A DNA stretch of 18,728 nt from contig JACPSX010000287.1 in assembly GCA_016193065.1 (NCBI GenBank), forward strand, positions 1 through 18,728, in the 5' to 3' direction. Below are positions 2,674 through 16,322 of the stretch, piece by piece. The stretch comes from Candidatus Tectimicrobiota bacterium (GTDB taxonomy: Bacteria; JACPSX01). The position numbers and the translations under genes are program-made. Position 1 is the stretch's first letter. Each line of letters opens with the position of its first letter. The notes beneath the pieces were generated by a model that made no database searches, was not told where the DNA came from, and saw only the letters and a program-made list of their open reading frames with translations.

Positions 2674-4485
2674 ATGCCGGTATCATCCTCGCCATCCACC
2701 GCCAGCGTAGCGGAACTGGCTACCCCTCGCCGACCCGAATACGGGTCCGATCACATCGTCGACGTTTTCAAAGCGCTGGACATCGAGTACACGGCCTTCA
2801 ACCCGGGAGCCACCTTCCGCGGGATTCACGATTCCATCGTGAATTACGGCGGCAACACGCGGCCCGAGGTGATCGAGTGCTGCCACGAGGAGATCTCGGT
2901 GGCCGTCGCCCACGGCTATGCCAAGGCTGCAGGCAAGCCGATGATCGCCATCGTCCACAACATCGTGGGGCTTCAGCACGCCTCCATGGCCATCTTCAAC
3001 GCCTGGTGCGATCGGGTCCCGGTGCTCGTCCTGGGAGGGACGGGACCCATGGACACCATGAAGCGCCGGCCCTGGATCGACTGGATCCATACGGCGCTGG
3101 TGCAGGGCAACCTGGTGCGCGATTTTGTGAAGTGGGACGACCAGCCCCATACCCTCAGCAACGTGGCCGAATCCTTCTTGAGAGGCTACCGGATCGCCCT
3201 GACCGAGCCCCAGGGCCCCATCTATATCTGCTATGATGCCGAGATCCAGGAAGGCCGGGTGACCGAAGAGATCTCCATTCCCGACGTGAGCCGCTACGGC
3301 CTGCCGGCACCCTTTCAGGCGGAACGGGGGGCACTGGAAAAAGCCGCCGACCTTCTTACCCGGGCCAAGTTCCCGGTGATTATCGCCGACTTCGTGGGCC
3401 GGAACCCGGGGGCGGTCCGCCACCTGGTGGAGCTGGCGGAAACCCTTAACGTTCCCGTCCTCGACACGGACAAGAGGAACCGGTTTAACTTCCCGAACAC
3501 GCACCCCCTGGATCTTTCGGGAGCCGATAATGAGATTATCAAGAAAGCCGATGTGATTTTGGGTTTGGATGTCCAGGATCTCTTCGGGGCCCTGAGCACG
3601 ACGGACCGGGTGGCCCGGGTAGCCAGGATGGGAATCGGCAAGGAAACCCAGGTGATTCACATTCACTTGAACGACCTCATCGTCCGAAGCTGGTCCACCG
3701 ATTACCAGCGGCTTCCCGCCGTGGACCTCCCGATCCTGGCCGACACTTCCGTGGCCCTGCCGGAGCTCGTGACCCTGTGCAAGGAGAGATTGAAAGGCGA
3801 AAACCCGAAGACCTCGGGGCGCCAACAGCGCCGGGAGGAATGCACGGAAATTCACCACCGCCTGAGGCAGACCTGGGCGGAAGCCGCCTCAACTCCGGTG
3901 CGCAACGGCCGCCTGACGGTTCCCTTCGTGGCGAAAGAGGTCTATGAAGCGATCAAGTCCGAAGACTGGACCCTGGTAAACGGAGATTTTAACAGTTGGG
4001 TCCGTCGGCTCTGGACAATGGACAAGCCTTACCAGTATCTGGGCCGGGCCGGCGGCGGCGGCGTGGGCTACGGAATGGGAGCCTCCCTGGGAGCCACCCT
4101 GGCGAACAAGGGGAACGGCAGGCTCTGCGTCGATATCCAGTCCGACGGCGACCTTCTCTATTGCGCCAGCTCCTTGTGGACGGCGGCACACCACCGAATT
4201 CCCCTGCTGGCCGTCATGTTCAACAACCGCTCTTACTACAACTCTCAAGAGCACGGAATCAACATGGCCAAGGCGCGCAATCGCCCCGTGGAAAAAGCGG
4301 GGATCGGCACCGAGATCACGGACCCCAACGTGGATTTCACCACGCTGGCCAAAGCGTACGGCTTGTGGGGCAAGGGGCCCATCACCCGTCCCGAGGAGGT
4401 GCGCCCCGCGATCCAGGAAGCCCTGCGCCATGTGAAGGAACAGAACGAATTCGCCCTCGTGGACATCGTCATGGAACCGCGCTGA
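2674..4485 (+). CDS. thiamine-diphosphate-dependent enzyme of the acetolactate synthase/decarboxylase family
   Basis: The product has 603 residues, the usual length for the ALS, oxalyl-CoA decarboxylase and benzoylformate decarboxylase superfamily. The N-terminal pyrimidine-binding domain has CCHEEISVAVAHGYAKAAGKP, with the likely catalytic Glu at E72 after H71. The central domain spans roughly 210-370. The C-terminal diphosphate-binding domain carries the Mg/ThDP motif as SDGD (490-493) and ends 24 residues later in NN (517-518); the first Gly of the usual GDG is Ser. I recall the same departure in a set of unassigned ThDP proteins. The reaction should be decarboxylation or carboligation of a 2-keto acid or acyl-CoA; the substrate is not readable. 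The start is set by AAGGAGG six bases upstream. It is monocistronic and converges on the next gene with 22 bp between the stops. Confidence 0.88.
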   Translation: MPVSSSPSTASVAELATPRRPEYGSDHIVDVFKALDIEYTAFNPGATFRGIHDSIVNYGGNTRPEVIECCHEEISVAVAHGYAKAAGKPMIAIVHNIVGLQHASMAIFNAWCDRVPVLVLGGTGPMDTMKRRPWIDWIHTALVQGNLVRDFVKWDDQPHTLSNVAESFLRGYRIALTEPQGPIYICYDAEIQEGRVTEEISIPDVSRYGLPAPFQAERGALEKAADLLTRAKFPVIIADFVGRNPGAVRHLVELAETLNVPVLDTDKRNRFNFPNTHPLDLSGADNEIIKKADVILGLDVQDLFGALSTTDRVARVARMGIGKETQVIHIHLNDLIVRSWSTDYQRLPAVDLPILADTSVALPELVTLCKERLKGENPKTSGRQQRREECTEIHHRLRQTWAEAASTPVRNGRLTVPFVAKEVYEAIKSEDWTLVNGDFNSWVRRLWTMDKPYQYLGRAGGGGVGYGMGASLGATLANKGNGRLCVDIQSDGDLLYCASSLWTAAHHRIPLLAVMFNNRSYYNSQEHGINMAKARNRPVEKAGIGTEITDPNVDFTTLAKAYGLWGKGPITRPEEVRPAIQEALRHVKEQNEFALVDIVMEPR

Positions 4486-4507
4486 ACAGGGAGGGATGGC
4501 CGGGCCC

Positions 4508-5404
4508 TCAGGCGTTCGCCAGAGCCTCCTCGATGACCTGATTCTTCCAGGTGGTGGGCAAGGGGATCCCGCATTCTTCCAGACCGACGGTCGCTGCACG
4601 GGGCACCAGACCGATGATCTCCAGATCGGACACCGGCAGCCCCCGGCTCTCCGCTTCGGCGGCGATGCGGCGGATGATCTGGCTCCAGGGTGTGATCCTG
4701 TAGTCCACCAGATTGACCGAGACCTGCACCATCCGGCGGCCGCGGAGTTTCACCCCGATTGCCTTCACAGCCGGAAGCCCCCCATCCCGGGCGCGCACGG
4801 CCCGGGCGACGGCCCGAGCGCTCTCCAGATCCTGCGAGGCCAGGTTGACATTGAAGGCGATGAGAATGCCCCGGGCTCCCACGGCCGTAGCTCCAGACTT
4901 GGCGTGAAACCGGCAAGGGCCTTCGTCGGGCTTCCAGCGCGGGTCTGCAAGCTTCCCCTGCAACCCCTCGTACTCTCCGCGCCGTACCGCCTCCAGCGGG
5001 ATGCGCTTCGCCGTCCGGGCCGCCTCTCCGTAGTAGAAGACCGGAATCCCGTGGCGGCCGGCAAATTGCCGCCCGAACTCATGGGCCGTCTGGACGGCTC
5101 GGGCCATGGGGAGATCCCCCAACGGGACAAAGGGGACCACATCAACGGCCCCGAGACGGGGATGGACGCCGCGATGATTCCTCATGTCAATGTGCTCCAC
5201 AGCCAGGCCGCAGGAAGCCAGGGCCGCCTCCAGGACTCTCTCGGGAGTACCCGCAAAGGTGAGCACCGAGCGATGGTGGTCCGGATCGCTCGTCGCGTGG
5301 AGAAAATTAACTCCGCTCACGCCCTTGACGGCCTGGACCAGGGAATCGACCAGACTCCGGTCCTTCCCCTCGCTGATGTTCGATACACATTCGAGAAGAT
5401 TCAC
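4508..5404 (-). CDS. glutamate formimidoyltransferase (single-domain FTCD N-terminal type)
   Basis: The product has 298 residues, the size of the stand-alone formiminotransferase domain without the cyclodeaminase half. Family motifs appear in order: ECVSNISEGKD (5-15), DPDHHRSVLTFAG (40-52), HRGVHPRLGAVDVVPF (77-92), VFYYGEAA, GATAVGARGILIAFNVNL, and VQVSVNLVDYR. H81 corresponds by position to the catalytic His82 of porcine FTCD. The enzyme moves the formimino group from N-formimino-L-glutamate to tetrahydrofolate, linking histidine breakdown to one-carbon metabolism in the cytosol. The start is GTG at 5402-5404 with only a weak G-rich ribosome site. No hut genes or cyclodeaminase are adjacent, so its pathway here is unsupported by neighbours. 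It diverges from the UbiD gene. Confidence 0.88.
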   Translation of the reverse strand: MNLLECVSNISEGKDRSLVDSLVQAVKGVSGVNFLHATSDPDHHRSVLTFAGTPERVLEAALASCGLAVEHIDMRNHRGVHPRLGAVDVVPFVPLGDLPMARAVQTAHEFGRQFAGRHGIPVFYYGEAARTAKRIPLEAVRRGEYEGLQGKLADPRWKPDEGPCRFHAKSGATAVGARGILIAFNVNLASQDLESARAVARAVRARDGGLPAVKAIGVKLRGRRMVQVSVNLVDYRITPWSQIIRRIAAEAESRGLPVSDLEIIGLVPRAATVGLEECGIPLPTTWKNQVIEEALANA

Positions 5405-8078: not shown

Positions 8079-8732
8079 TCAGGCGGGGGCGGCCCAGATC
8101 TTGGTTACCGCCTCGCGGCTCAAGGTCGTCTTCCGGCCGCCGATTTCCACCACCAGCGCCCCGCCGTAGTTCCGCTCCAGGACACGGAAGGAAGCCCCGG
8201 GCCGCAGACCCAGGCGGTGCAGGTACTCCATGAAGCTCTGGTCCTTCTCATGGACCCGGATGATCTTCAGGCTATCTCCCGGTGCGGCCGACTCCAGGAT
8301 CTTCACTCCGCCTTTGCGGTCCTCCCGGGGAGCTTCCACGCTCAGGGGGTAGCCGTGGGGGCAGGTGCCTTCCCGGCCGAAGAGCGAAACCAGGCACCTC
8401 TCCAACTCGGGAGAAATCGCGTGCTCCAGGATCTCGGCTTCCTCATGAACCCGGTACCAGGGCATCCGGATCACGTCCGCCAGGAGTTTCTCCACCAGCC
8501 GGTGCCTCCTCACCAGGGTGACGGCAATCCGCTTCCCCTTAGCCGTCAGGAGGATCCTTCCCTGGGGGCCTACCTTGACGTAGCCCTCCTTCGCCATCCT
8601 CTTCAGAGCGGCCGTCACAGCCGGAGGAGAAACCGCCAGTTCCTCCGCCAGCCGGGCCGCGATGGGGCTTTGCCCCTCGTACTGGAGATGCCAGATGGTC
8701 TTTAGGTAATTCTCCTTGGAAACCGTCGGCAT
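8079..8732 (-). CDS. MntR/DtxR-family metal-dependent transcriptional regulator
   Basis: The product has 217 residues with three parts: a winged helix-turn-helix (about 1-75), a dimerisation and metal-binding domain (75-140), and an SH3/FeoA-like domain (about 150-217). Metal-ligand positions by alignment from memory: N8 (Asp8 in MntR, Met10 in DtxR), H77, E81, H96, E100 (Glu99 in MntR, Cys102 in DtxR), E103 and H104. The Glu instead of Cys at 100 argues for manganese or a broad divalent response more than strict iron sensing, while N8 is unusual for both. The ATG at 8732 starts MPTVSKENYLK, the normal family N-terminus, with GGTGAGGGG as ribosome site. An in-frame ATG at 8804 lies inside an operator and is rejected. 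It diverges from the oxidase and permease genes, its likely targets. Confidence 0.88.
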   Translation of the reverse strand: MPTVSKENYLKTIWHLQYEGQSPIAARLAEELAVSPPAVTAALKRMAKEGYVKVGPQGRILLTAKGKRIAVTLVRRHRLVEKLLADVIRMPWYRVHEEAEILEHAISPELERCLVSLFGREGTCPHGYPLSVEAPREDRKGGVKILESAAPGDSLKIIRVHEKDQSFMEYLHRLGLRPGASFRVLERNYGGALVVEIGGRKTTLSREAVTKIWAAPA

Positions 8733-8734
8733 CA

Positions 8735-8770
8735 ACCCCTCACCCCACCCTCTCCCGCCAGGGGAGAGGG
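8735..8770. repeat. palindromic repeat, copy C, in the regulator leader
   Basis: CCCTCTCCC (8748-8756) and GGGAGAGGG (8762-8770) form a perfect 9-bp stem with a 5-nt loop, and CCCCTCACCC precedes it as in copy A. It ends two bases before the regulator start codon and, read on the minus strand, supplies the G-rich ribosome site. It must therefore be part of the regulator's 5' leader. Confidence 0.7.
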
Positions 8771-8785
8771 GGAAAAAGGACCCCC

Positions 8786-8814
8786 TTGACAGGTTATTAA
8801 CCATGGTTAATAAT
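8786..8814 (+). promoter_or_regulatory. promoter of the multicopper oxidase-ZIP operon
   Basis: A perfect TTGACA (8786-8791) and AATAAT (8809-8814, 5 of 6 to consensus) are separated by 17 bp. The first operator palindrome occupies almost exactly the space between the two boxes and the -10. A weaker promoter on the other strand (TTGTTA 8836-8831, 18 bp, TATTAA) would overlap the same operators. Confidence 0.65.
8794..8813. promoter_or_regulatory. operator palindrome 1 (probable metalloregulator box)
   Basis: A perfect 20-bp palindrome, half-site TTATTAACCA. The TTAACC/GGTTAA core is of the kind bound by DtxR/MntR-family dimers. It sits between the -35 and -10 elements of the oxidase promoter, so binding would block RNA polymerase. 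Confidence 0.7.
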
Positions 8815-8816
8815 AT

Positions 8817-8836
8817 TTGTTAACCAGGGTTAACAA
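8817..8836. promoter_or_regulatory. operator palindrome 2 (probable metalloregulator box)
   Basis: A 20-bp palindrome with one mismatched central pair, half-sites TTGTTAACCA and GGGTTAACAA. It has the same TTnTTAACC-GGTTAAnAA design as box 1 and its centre is 23 bp away. It covers the predicted transcription start near 8821. Confidence 0.7.
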
Positions 8837-8923
8837 CACAGAGCCCGCAGGTTCACAACCCTTGAGCCTCATTATAGTGGCAGAGGGCCCAACTGCAAGG
8901 CGAGAGTGAACGGAGGGGGGAAG

Positions 8924-9928
8924 ATGGTTTCCAGAAGAGAATTCCTGAAGTACGGCCTCGGCGGTACAGCCGCCTTGGGGGCGGCCACCCTGGCGGCGAG
9001 CGCCGGCGGGCAGACATCCGGCCACGTTCCGGCAGCCGGGGCTTCGGGGCACGCCGTCATGATCCCGAAGGTCCCCCGAACGTTCGGCGATTTCAACCCC
9101 ATGGCCTTTCTCACCTCTTTTGACTACGGGCGCGTGCAGCGTCTCAGCGACGGTACCACGCTGCGCGAGTACAAAATCGTGGCGGTGGATAAGGAGATCG
9201 AGGTGGCCCCGGGGGTGAAGTTCCCCGCCTGGACCTACAACGGCACGGTTCCAGGCCCCACCCTGCGCTGTACCGAGGGGGATCTATTGCGGGTTCACTT
9301 CACCAACGCCGGCAGCCACCCCCATACGATCCACTTCCACGGCATCCACCCGGACAACATGGATGGGGTCTTCGAGATCGTCCCCACAGGGGGAACCTTC
9401 ACCTACGAGTTCCACGCCGAACCCTTCGGGCTGTTCCTTTACCACTGCCACGTGATGCCGATCAAAGCCCACATTCACAAGGGGCTCTACGGAGCCTTCC
9501 TCGTCGACCCGCGCCAGCCCCGGCCCCCGGCCCGGGAGATGATCATGGTGATGAACGGGTTCGACACGGACCTGGATGGGGAAAACGAGTTTTACACCGT
9601 GAACGGCGTTGCCAACTACTATGCCGCTCATCCCATTCCGGTCAAGGTGGGGGAACTGATCCGCGTCTACCTGGTGAACCTGACGGAGTTTGACCTGATC
9701 AACTCCTTCCACCTGCACGCGAACATGTTCCGGCTCTACCGCACGGGGACGAATCTGACCCAGTACGAGTACACCGATACGGTAATGCTCTGCCAGGGGG
9801 AGCGCTGCGTCCTGGAGTTCACCTACAAGTATCCCGGGAAGTACATGTTCCACGCCCACCAGAGCGAATTCGCGGAGCTGGGCTGGATGGGCTTCTTTGA
9901 GGTAACCGGCTCGACTGGAGTCGGCTAA
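8924..9928 (+). CDS. Tat-exported two-domain multicopper oxidase (type 1 copper in domain 1)
   Basis: The product has 334 residues. A twin-arginine signal (SRREFLKYGLGG, hydrophobic to about 28) sends it folded to the periplasm or cell surface. Cupredoxin domain 1 (about 80-195) has HPHTIHFHG (H134, H137, H139) and YHCHV (H174, C175, H176), then H183 and L188, which supply a type 1 site (H134, C175, H183). Domain 2 (about 205-328) has FHLH (H263, H265) and FHAH (H310, H312) but no Cys, so no type 1 site. Eight His remain for an inter-domain trinuclear cluster. This layout is the type C two-domain oxidase class. Substrates may be Fe(II), Mn(II), Cu(I) or phenols. GGAGGGGGG four bases before the ATG at 8924 beats the upstream GTG at 8906. 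It leads an operon with the ZIP gene 14 bp downstream. Confidence 0.88.
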   Translation: MVSRREFLKYGLGGTAALGAATLAASAGGQTSGHVPAAGASGHAVMIPKVPRTFGDFNPMAFLTSFDYGRVQRLSDGTTLREYKIVAVDKEIEVAPGVKFPAWTYNGTVPGPTLRCTEGDLLRVHFTNAGSHPHTIHFHGIHPDNMDGVFEIVPTGGTFTYEFHAEPFGLFLYHCHVMPIKAHIHKGLYGAFLVDPRQPRPPAREMIMVMNGFDTDLDGENEFYTVNGVANYYAAHPIPVKVGELIRVYLVNLTEFDLINSFHLHANMFRLYRTGTNLTQYEYTDTVMLCQGERCVLEFTYKYPGKYMFHAHQSEFAELGWMGFFEVTGSTGVG

Positions 9929-9942
9929 GGGGGGAGGCAACC

Positions 9943-11112
9943 ATGAGCACCAAACTTCGCCTGGCTCTCACCTTTCTCCTCCCCCTGGTCGCCCTGGGGA
10001 TACTGGTCGCTTTCCTGCTAACCCGCGGCCATACGCTGCTGGGAAGCCCCGTGCCCCCCGTGGAGAAGCTCACGATCACCCGGGCTCTGTTCCGGCCTCA
10101 GGTCATCGAGGTCCGTGTCCTCAACAACGGACCGATCCCGGCCTCCGTTGCCCAGGTGACGGTCAATGAAGCCCTGTGGGACTTCTCCATCACTCCCAAC
10201 CCGACTATGCCCCGACTCGGTCAGGCAGTCATCTCGATCCCTTACCCCTGGGTGGCCGGCGAGCCCCACAACATCGCGATCATCACCGCCACGGGCCTGA
10301 AGTTCCAGAAGCAGGTGGAAATCGCCGCGCCGGCTCCCTCCCCTTCACCGGGCGCCTTCGGGCTCTTTGCTCTCCTGGGGGTGTACGTGGGGGTGATCCC
10401 CGTGTTTCTGGGGCTCCTCTGGTTCCCGTTCTTGAAGCGGCTGGGGGACCAGTGGCTCGATTTTTTCATGAGCCTCACGGCGGGGCTGCTCATCTTCCTG
10501 GGTCTGGATGCTCTGAAAGAGGCCTTCGAGGTCTCGGGGCGGATCCCCGACCTCTTCCAAGGGGTCGCCATCATCGCGGCGGGCACGGCGGGAAGCTTCC
10601 TGCTGCTGATTGCCATCTCCCAGAAGCTGAGCAAGAGGCTCCCCTCGGGCTCCGCCGGGTTTCTGCTGGCTTACATGATCTCCATCGGGATCGGCCTGCA
10701 CAACCTGGGGGAAGGGCTGGCCATCGGGGCGGCCTACGTCCTCGGCGAGGTGGCCCTGGGGGCTTTCCTGGTCATCGGCTTCACGATCCACAACACGACG
10801 GAAGGGCTGGCCATCGTGTCCCCCCTGGCGCAGAGCAAACCGCCCCTGCGGCATTTCCTGTGGCTCGGACTCATTGCCGGCGCACCGACCATCCTGGGAA
10901 GTTGGATCGGCGGCTTTACTTATTCGGATCCCGCCTCCGTCCTGTTTCTCAGCATCGGAGCCGGAGCCATCTTCCAGGTGGTCCGGGAAGTCATCCGTTA
11001 CCGGGCGCGGGGCGCACCGGTCCTCCAAGCCCTGGGCACTCCGGTGAATTTCTCCGGCCTCCTGTGTGGCTTCCTTCTTATGTACGTGACCAGCCTCTTC
11101 GTGGCCGCCTAG
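9943..11112 (+). CDS. ZIP-family divalent metal transporter with N-terminal extracytoplasmic domain
   Basis: The product has 389 residues. Residues about 7-27 form a first membrane segment, and 40-130 are a soluble beta-rich stretch (KLTITRALFRPQVIEVRVLNNGPIPASVAQVTV and onward) that looks like an Ig/cupredoxin-like sandwich on the outer side. A Pro/Ala/Ser linker (129-137) then joins a ZIP core of about eight segments. The ZIP metal-site motifs are HNLGEG (H253, N254, E257) and HNTTEG (H283, N284, E287) in adjacent helices. ZIP proteins move Zn, Fe or Mn towards the cytoplasm. The extra domain is not part of ordinary bacterial ZIPs and may dock the oxidase or bind metal. GGGGAGG precedes the ATG; both genes should be controlled by the twin operators. 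The stop shares CTAG with the convergent DUF72 gene. Confidence 0.87.
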   Translation: MSTKLRLALTFLLPLVALGILVAFLLTRGHTLLGSPVPPVEKLTITRALFRPQVIEVRVLNNGPIPASVAQVTVNEALWDFSITPNPTMPRLGQAVISIPYPWVAGEPHNIAIITATGLKFQKQVEIAAPAPSPSPGAFGLFALLGVYVGVIPVFLGLLWFPFLKRLGDQWLDFFMSLTAGLLIFLGLDALKEAFEVSGRIPDLFQGVAIIAAGTAGSFLLLIAISQKLSKRLPSGSAGFLLAYMISIGIGLHNLGEGLAIGAAYVLGEVALGAFLVIGFTIHNTTEGLAIVSPLAQSKPPLRHFLWLGLIAGAPTILGSWIGGFTYSDPASVLFLSIGAGAIFQVVREVIRYRARGAPVLQALGTPVNFSGLLCGFLLMYVTSLFVAA

Positions 11113-14540: not shown

Positions 14541-15365
14541 CTAGGCACTATCCCCTCTCGGTTGGGCAGCCGCATGCTCTCCAGGCTTGCGGGCCGTTAC
14601 GATGATCGAGTAGACCAGCTCGGCGTGGCGGTGAGGCGGCACCACCTCCCGCAGGAAGTCGAGAAACTCCGTGGCGAAAAGCGGATAGCAGGCCAGTTCG
14701 GCCAGGCCAAAGGGTTTTCGCTCCAGCACCTGAATCTCTTCAAATCCGACGTTGAAAAACTTCTTCAGCAGCACTGGCTCCACCAGTGTTCCTGCCAGTC
14801 ACCCCGCCAGGGCCGCCGGGCTCTTGAGGACCGGCTCCGGCAGAGTCTCGGTCAGGACGAGGTCCGAAATCGAAACCCGCCCGCCAGGGCGAAGCACCCG
14901 TATCATTTCCGCCAGGGCGCGGCTCTTGCGCGTTGACAGATTGAGTACCCCATTGGAGATGATCACATCCACGGAGGCATCGGAGAGCGGGATCTCTTCC
15001 ATCATCCCTTCCCGAAGTTCCACGTTCGTAAGGCCCATGAGAGCGGTGTGTTTCTGCGCCCGCTCGAGCATCTTCGGAGTCATGTCAAGGCCGATGGCCT
15101 TCCCCTGAGGGCCTACGGCCATGGCCGCCAGAAGCGTGTCAATCCCGCCCCCACACCCCAGGTCGAGCACCACCTGGCCCGGCTTAAGGCCCGCATGGCG
15201 CACCGGGTGTGCGACCCCTAGAGCCAGCTCGACTGCCCCTCGAGGCAGTCGGGCCAACTCTTCGGGAGCATAAAGGGCCTCGGCTACAGCGGCCCCGTCG
15301 GACTGAACCTGTCCGTAGGTTTCGCGGATGATCGATCGGGCATCCGCTTCACTGAAATAAGGCAT
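14541..15365 (-). CDS. ArsM-like SAM-dependent methyltransferase, candidate selenoprotein (in-frame TGA)
   Basis: Read through one TGA at 14801-14799, the frame gives 274 residues from ATG 15365 (GAGGGGG six bases upstream) to TAG 14541. The first 188 residues hold a class I methyltransferase: VLDLGCGGGID (66-76), IGLDMTPKML (91-100), VDVIISNGVLNLS (132-144), LRPGGRVSISDLV (158-170). After the TGA (residue 189) comes LAGTLVEPVLLKKFFNVGFEEI, then the family-specific RKPFGLAELACYPLF. Both halves are in one frame with no lost bases. In arsenite methyltransferases this motif is G-C-(L/V)-(A/G)-G, with the Cys binding As(III). The UGA thus replaces that Cys, and a SECIS-like hairpin follows. C71 and C226 remain; the Cys after the GxGxD motif is Thr77. 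It is cotranscribed with the sigma/anti-sigma pair. The alternative is a nonsense mutation giving a truncated protein. Confidence 0.78.
14772..14788 (-). promoter_or_regulatory. candidate bacterial SECIS hairpin
   Basis: On the minus strand CACTGG and CCAGTG form a perfect 6-bp stem around loop TGGAG; a U-G pair can reduce the loop to GGA. The loop begins 17 nt after the TGA, inside the 16-37 nt window known for bacterial SECIS elements, and has G at the second loop position as in SelB-bound hairpins. Confidence 0.6.
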
Positions 15366-15392: not shown

Positions 15393-15626
15393 TTAGGGAC
15401 GGTTCAAGGCCTGACGGATCCGCTCTTGCAGCCCCGATGGCAGCGAGGCCTCCGGCAGGCGGTTCTTGACAAAGGCGTCAAGCTGGCGGCTGAACGCCAG
15501 CTTATCGCAGCATGACAGACACTCCTGGAGGTGGGCCTCAAGATCCTCAAGCGACTCTCCGGAGAGGGCCCGGTCCAGGTACGCAAAGAACTGTTGCATG
15601 GCTTCTCCACAAGTCATTGGCTTCAT
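15393..15626 (-). CDS. soluble zinc-binding anti-sigma factor (ZAS / zf-HC2)
   Basis: The product has 77 residues and no membrane segment. It has the ZAS pattern: C6 near the start, then H32, C36 and C39 (HLQECLSC), the same H-x3-C-x2-C spacing as the redox-sensitive anti-sigma factor RsrA of Streptomyces. An extra Cys, C40, is adjacent. Such proteins hold an ECF sigma factor and release it when the Cys are oxidised or modified. The start at 15626 overlaps the sigma stop as ATGA, so translation is coupled; a longer frame from 15734 lies inside the sigma gene and is rejected. The methyltransferase start follows 27 bp after its stop. The exact inducer (oxidant, electrophile or thiophilic metalloid) is inference. 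Confidence 0.85.
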   Translation of the reverse strand: MKPMTCGEAMQQFFAYLDRALSGESLEDLEAHLQECLSCCDKLAFSRQLDAFVKNRLPEASLPSGLQERIRQALNRP

Positions 15627-16234
15627 GTCTTCCACGTCCTCACTAGTCCACGCCGCTTGGCGCACTCCCACAACTCCCGCTCCAGGATCTTTCTCCCTCG
15701 GTGCAGGCGGGACATCACCGTGCCGACGGGACACCCCAAGACTTCCGCCAGATCCCGGTAACTCATCTCTTCTCCATAGAGCAGAACCAAAGGCAAACGG
15801 TAAACCTCAGGCAAGTGCAGCAAGGCCCTGCGTACCTCCTCATCCTCAAACTGTTTCAGAAAATCATCGTGGAGACAGTCCGAATAGGGGAAAGGATCTT
15901 CATCCCAGATCTGGTCATAGAGAGAGAACCAGTCCGGCTCTTTGGGATCCCCCATGGTAATTTCTCGAGTCTCGCTCCGGTGATGATCCATAACCAGGCG
16001 GCTCAGGATCTGGAAGAGCCACGACCGAACCCGCTCAGGTTGCCGCAATGTGGAGAAGGCCCGGAGCGCCTTAAGGTAGGTGTCTTGTACGAGGTCTTCC
16101 GCATCCTGTGAATCCCCTTTGAGGCGAACCGCTAATCGGTACAGGCTGTCAAGGTGTGGCAGCGTGAGCTCTTCGAACCGCTGTCTCTCCTGCGGATCGA
16201 GCGAGCTTGCCGTCCCTGTGTCCTGACCACCCAT
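15623..16234 (-). CDS. ECF-type RNA polymerase sigma factor
   Basis: The product has 203 residues, the normal ECF length. Region 2 (about 25-90) contains DAEDLVQDTYLKALRAFSTLR and SWLFQILSRLVMDHHR for -10 recognition and core binding. Region 4 (about 135-195) contains LPEVYRLPLVLLYGEEMSYRDLAEVLGCPVGTVMSRLHRGRKIL, a clear helix-turn-helix for the -35. Regions 1.1 and 3 are absent, as expected. AGGGGGA lies directly before the ATG at 16234. It overlaps the anti-sigma gene by four bases and heads a three-gene unit ending in the methyltransferase. With an RsrA-like partner it is probably a SigR/RpoE-type stress factor and may drive its own promoter (16296-16322). Confidence 0.92.
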   Translation of the reverse strand: MGGQDTGTASSLDPQERQRFEELTLPHLDSLYRLAVRLKGDSQDAEDLVQDTYLKALRAFSTLRQPERVRSWLFQILSRLVMDHHRSETREITMGDPKEPDWFSLYDQIWDEDPFPYSDCLHDDFLKQFEDEEVRRALLHLPEVYRLPLVLLYGEEMSYRDLAEVLGCPVGTVMSRLHRGRKILERELWECAKRRGLVRTWKT

Positions 16235-16295
16235 TCCCCCTCCCCTTTGTGCAGTTCAGGACCGCTCTGTTGGTTTTACTGCGTTTGCTTGTTAA

Positions 16296-16322
16296 GACGG
16301 TAAACCAGGAGGAAATATTCCC
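16296..16322 (-). promoter_or_regulatory. candidate ECF-type autoregulated promoter
   Basis: On the minus strand GGGAAT (16322-16317) is followed after 18 bp by GTC (16298-16296). The streptomycete SigR consensus is GGGAAT-N18-GTT, so both the -35 and the spacing fit. Transcription would start about 50 bases before the sigma start codon. Confidence 0.4.

Follow-up and report, generated by a model that had tools for sequence, protein, structure and literature searches.

The analysed DNA, an 18,728-nucleotide stretch referred to here as the window, encodes on its minus strand an ArsM-like SAM-dependent methyltransferase, in which an in-frame UGA at codon 189 is almost certainly decoded as selenocysteine (Sec), making the enzyme a selenoprotein. 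This assignment follows from a TGA conserved at one codon, an invariant hairpin, silent-site conservation, and the presence of selB together with two TGA-containing selD genes in the source genome. On balance, we favour an explanation in which Sec occupies the position of one arsenite-binding cysteine of ArsM enzymes, the other ligands have been lost, the substrate is singly bound and the enzyme is supplied by a stress-regulated operon.

The UGA codon and its decoding

The methyltransferase gene at 14541–15365 was delineated by domain matches and by orthologues sharing its UGA, and its product comprises 274 aa if UGA is read as Sec. Read from 15365 to 14541, the 274-codon frame contains a single internal stop, TGA at 14801–14799, in the context SPAALAG-U-LAGTL, and terminates with TAG. 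The original prediction had described two same-frame open stretches of 188 aa and 85 codons, split by this TGA, as a candidate selenoprotein, and both the coordinates and the context were confirmed.

A contig search of genomes returned four relatives from Candidatus Methylomirabilota/Rokuibacteriota assemblies with 76, 79, 68 and 64 % identity, and a phylum-wide search added one orthologue at 68 % and two paralogues at 51 % identity. All five orthologues (64–79 % identity to the window protein) and the paralogue family (51 %), from Rokubacteria/Methylomirabilota, carry TGA exactly at codon 189, while their aligned domain is free of other stops and distant homologues have Cys at this site. The comparison of close relatives at residue 189 suggested along with the original prediction was therefore answered by UGA throughout. 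The pN/pS ratios of 0.23–0.31 before and 0.23–0.47 after the UGA indicate purifying selection on both sides.

Just 3′ of the UGA, at 14772–14788 on the minus strand, lies a bSECIS-like hairpin, CACUGG-UGGAG-CCAGUG, recognised by its fold and by its invariance in the window gene and the five orthologues. Its apical loop starts 16 nt 3′ of the UGA, from where the hairpin would assist decoding of codon 189 as Sec. The 17-nt element reads CACTGG-YGGAG-CCAGTG in all six genes, a U/C exchange in the loop being the only variation; because of this invariance, no covariation or compensatory changes were found among them. Folding of single sequences gives only modest z-scores (−0.8 to −1.9), which would be insufficient on their own. 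At the fourfold sites of codons +1 to +10, 98 of 120 third-base comparisons agree, compared to a mean of 6.5 of 15 per column elsewhere, and the observed agreement was reached by 0 of 100000 random column draws. Codons +4 and +8 must end in A for the hairpin to form, and they do so in all six genes, whose GC-rich sequences otherwise show an A-ending share of only 1–10 % among fourfold codons.

The source assembly, which is 86 % complete and consists of 294 contigs, contains selB (match of 371 bits) and a pair of selD genes, both of which have a single in-frame TGA within the N-terminal motif in which SelD proteins carry Sec or Cys. The two selD genes are diverged, one being located at L020 (G000:C175) near 8424–9350 and the other at L021 (G000:C120) near 3960–4886, with the TGA contexts CAGUAGKL and GAGUGCKI, respectively. 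Neither selA nor tRNA-Sec was found in this assembly, so that the genome check proposed earlier came out positive for selB and selD only. The best RF01852 matches, considered as tRNA-Sec candidates, were shown by ARAGORN to be ordinary tRNA genes (Ser, Trp, Leu and others), and the start of the selB contig held no convincing trace of a truncated selA or tRNA-Sec. Among the genomes of the first four relatives, three contain both selB and selA. Five of the six relatives searched for tRNA-Sec proved to have it, and one of the genomes (G060) has tRNA-Sec, selA and selB on a single contig; furthermore, 83 of the 95 genomes from the relatives' phylum contain selB. The absence of selA and tRNA-Sec from the source assembly is thus most simply explained by assembly gaps.

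These observations also bear on whether the codon is a true stop, be it through a sequencing error, in a pseudogene or at the end of a functional truncated protein. UGA does serve as a normal stop in the source genome, with TGA terminating six of the 15 main window genes (which also ruled out a genome-wide reassignment of UGA), and the missing selA and tRNA-Sec would fit such a reading. The recurrence of this TGA in at least six diverged genomes that were assembled independently, the purifying selection downstream of it and the conservation of the SECIS-like hairpin nevertheless eliminate it in all three forms, leaving it a vanishingly small probability.

Loss of the partner arsenite ligands

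The Sec-containing gene product belongs to the class I SAM methyltransferases and, within the ArsM superfamily, is nearest to arsenite methyltransferases. It displays the SAM motif VLDLGCGGGID within an ArsM fold, and its AF2 model (pLDDT 79.8, with low confidence in the loop around residue 189) matches the CrArsM and CmArsM structures with Z 23.7–25.0. The best NCBIfam match, the arsenite methyltransferase model PRK11873 (NF008823), scores 230.5 bits and thereby stays below its cut-off of 263. With NF041537 (ArsM_AhpD_UU), NF041536 (ArsM_DUF2284_UU) and NF047649 (MTase_UXPK_star), the window protein shares a homologous methyltransferase domain and the UxxG Sec motif, whereas those families feature extra domains with further Sec; having a single Sec and no extra domain, the window protein reaches 161.6, 148.8 and 155.8 bits, far below the respective cut-offs of 510, 575 and 460.

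Cys72, Cys174 and Cys224 are the arsenite ligands of crystallised CmArsM. Its C174A and C224A mutants methylate neither arsenite nor methylarsenite, and the C72A mutant has lost the first step, arsenite methylation (PMC3877260). In the alignment to CmArsM, Val51 corresponds to Cys72, Gly139 to Cys174 and Sec189, whose codon at 14799–14801 on the minus strand was placed by frame and alignment, to Cys224. The earlier claim that the UGA falls on a known As(III)-ligand cysteine was therefore borne out. Fold, SAM motif and the correspondence of residue 189 to C224 are common to the window protein and CmArsM/AS3MT (PDB 4FR0, 4FSD, 5EVJ, 6CX6, 8XT7), but the triad C72/C174/C224 of these enzymes is replaced by V51/G139/U189. 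The accompanying picture of an ArsM with one Cys merely swapped for Sec was not supported, as the partner ligands are lost in every Sec member examined and the window protein therefore has no arsenic site of the known type.

To follow this pattern across the family, homologues were drawn from two sets of genomes, the first comprising 386 diverse genomes and the second 95 from the relatives' phylum. Gly139 is present and Cys51 absent in each of the 20 Sec proteins of the first set, whereas Cys139 is found in 45 of 45 Cys proteins and Cys51 in 43 of the 44 that have a residue there. In the second set, too, every Sec protein (14 of them new) has Gly139 and lacks Cys51, and the 27 Cys proteins all have Cys51, 26 with Cys139 and one with Ser139. 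Over both sets, comprising 106 homologues of which some are near copies of one another, Gly139 without Cys51 occurs in 34 of 34 Sec proteins, while Gly139 occurs in none of the 72 Cys proteins. The only other conserved cysteine in the Sec group is the motif-I Cys71 (14 of 20). The best tree built without the three ligand columns requires two changes for the Sec type, but the AU test does not reject one clade (p 0.51). The association of Sec with Gly139 thus reflects no more than one or two origins, few events though consistent ones. As far as the sequences tell, it is an old stable replacement and not the product of many repeated events.

Several further variants were observed among the homologues. 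Rare deviants of the Cys type, L029 with Val51 and both other cysteines and L147 with Ser139, are possible intermediates. The source genome has a second Sec methyltransferase at L077 (G000:C268; 1–1322, minus strand) with the motif WFKUIAGAL in frame with a radical SAM domain, a methyltransferase–radical SAM fusion selenoprotein interrupted by the contig end. Sec methyltransferases of different subfamilies stand in tandem or as neighbours in two genomes, at L080 (2230–3018 and 3024–3841, minus strand) and L055 (1673–2473 and near 3600–4300). Some orthologues carry a C-terminal zinc-ribbon-like tail (e.g. CPACGHDN...FCNQCG), as seen after 2473 in L055 and before 3934 in L082, where a zinc-ribbon adenylate/guanylate cyclase is the next gene. 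A Sec methyltransferase subfamily represented by L180, L182, L184, L185 and L187 shows WFAUIAGAKE and VNGIFNLN motifs with a deviating SN motif.

In principle, the window protein could be a working arsenite (or methylarsenite) methyltransferase, with Sec standing in for one Cys ligand and the remaining ligands coming from glutathione or other thiols of the cell. Its best NCBIfam match and its closest structures are indeed ArsM enzymes, and databases label its Sec relatives arsenite methyltransferase (PMC13188914). However, the PRK11873 cut-off is not reached, the equivalents of Cys72 and Cys174 are missing in all 34 Sec proteins, and mutating those cysteines in CmArsM or AS3MT abolishes arsenite methylation. 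The source genome, moreover, already encodes an ArsM of the canonical Cys type with a complete ligand triad (L078). We consider such an activity of the window protein unlikely.

A probable sigma-factor operon and its promoter-like site

The Sec methyltransferase gene is very likely the third gene of an ECF sigma/anti-sigma operon. It lies 27 nt 3′ of a zf-HC2 anti-sigma gene on the same strand, which is in turn preceded by the ECF sigma gene. Domain matches identified the ECF-family RNA polymerase sigma factor at 15623–16234 and the zf-HC2 anti-sigma factor with its RsrA-like HxxxCxxC motif at 15393–15734, both on the minus strand; the latter range is that of the longest ORF, the true start being probably an internal ATG near 15622. 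Sigma70 r2 and r4 domains adjoining a zf-HC2 protein characterise the two as an ECF sigma/zf-HC2 pair, and both have counterparts in all five orthologous loci, at 64–76 % for the sigma and 56–66 % for the anti-sigma factor. The order ECF sigma, anti-sigma, Sec methyltransferase is common to these five loci, one of them having an extra methyltransferase inserted, and the identical order recurs in a genome outside the 95-genome phylum set (G443), at 45 % and 32 % identity.

Sequence comparison also uncovered, at 16293–16322 on the minus strand, a conserved promoter-like site of the ECF type, GGGAATATT-N13-CCGTCTTA, which lies upstream of the sigma gene. The pattern GGGAATWTT, 12–16 bases, CCGTC precedes the sigma gene of the window and likewise that of every orthologous locus with the region available, four in number. 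It occurs once in the window, where 0.01 occurrences are expected by chance, and among 187 loci it is found nowhere but upstream of the sigma gene. In its form the conserved site resembles an autoregulated ECF promoter, and it may act as one. The SigR-RsrA/SigH pairs likewise combine an ECF sigma factor and an HxxxCxxC anti-sigma factor with a GGGAAT...CCGTC-type promoter before the sigma gene, but the window pair stays below the equivalog cut-offs (RsrA 47 vs 62.5 bits, SigH_actino 122 vs 252) and, unlike those pairs, is followed by a Sec methyltransferase as third gene. The original interpretation, which was supported for the selenoprotein and the ligand position but not for the ArsM picture, had contained neither this operon and its promoter nor the SECIS-like hairpin.

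Proteins annotated as PpoB2 (copper chaperone) are encoded in the vicinity of both the paralogue locus L081 and the G443 gene, the latter being additionally accompanied by DUF1326 and OsmC; these neighbours point loosely to metal or thiol stress. Within the window, ORF translations judged by eye place a DtxR/MntR-like regulator, a multicopper-oxidase-like protein and a ZIP-like transporter consecutively at 8079–11112.

The RsrA-like anti-sigma factor would also suit a role of Sec189 as a redox or sensing residue for peroxide or electrophiles, in a protein that methylates an unrelated organic substrate or is a stress-responsive methyltransferase. Sec is typical of redox sites. The group nonetheless has no conserved resolving Cys, and its Sec occupies the metalloid-ligand position that faces SAM in ArsM, which makes a redox or sensing function quite improbable.

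Proposed mechanism and significance

For the Sec methyltransferase, we tentatively propose, with somewhat less than even confidence, a mechanism based on a single bond to selenium. Sec189 would hold the substrate in front of SAM through one Se bond, Gly139 would open the space formerly filled by the second thiolate, and the methyl group would be transferred to a soft centre attached by this bond alone. The number of thiols bound falls from three for arsenite to two for methylarsenite and one for dimethylarsenite (PMC3877260), so that among arsenicals only a one-valence species would fit a single-ligand site. Candidate substrates would be compounds with a single free valence, for instance dimethylarsenite, and with equal likelihood an organomercurial or a Se, Te or S species. 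Canonical arsenite methylation by the Sec protein is unlikely because one selenolate stands for a three-thiolate site; the selenolate might nevertheless coordinate arsenite together with glutathione or another external thiol, which we count against the single-bond model. The methyltransferase would be made on demand, its gene standing last in a presumably autoregulated operon that would answer thiol-reactive or metal(loid) stress.

Sec-containing ArsM-like (UxxG) proteins have already been catalogued as arsenite methyltransferase and as fusions (PMC13188914), among them the arsenite methyltransferase-like entry WP_011987699.1 (NF008823 'UxxG'), with Fomenko 2007 cited in the same source. Like the window protein, these are ArsM-superfamily methyltransferases with Sec as at the C224 position of CmArsM; they are treated as arsenite methyltransferases, whereas the window protein is devoid of the other two As ligands. 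A literature search, the scope of which did not extend to Haft and Tolstoy 2025, Haft and Gwadz 2023 and Fomenko 2007, found no description of ligand loss in Sec forms or of the sigma-factor operon, and both the lost-triad rule and the operon provisionally appear to be new.

More broadly, we see evenly balanced prospects for a widespread branch of the ArsM superfamily in which the three-Cys metalloid site has given way to a single Sec facing Gly, carrying out a different methyl transfer on a singly tethered substrate and, in Methylomirabilota, placed under its own ECF sigma/anti-sigma switch. A lone conserved Sec without a resolving thiol is unusual, selenoproteins being mostly redox enzymes. 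The name arsenite methyltransferase, which Sec ArsM-like proteins bear in databases, was given by homology, and if the proposal is true, such labels on these selenoproteins are wrong. That Sec never occurs alongside the other As ligands in the cases examined suggests another substrate for the whole selenoprotein set, across several lineages, and the inducer of the operon would point to what this substrate is.
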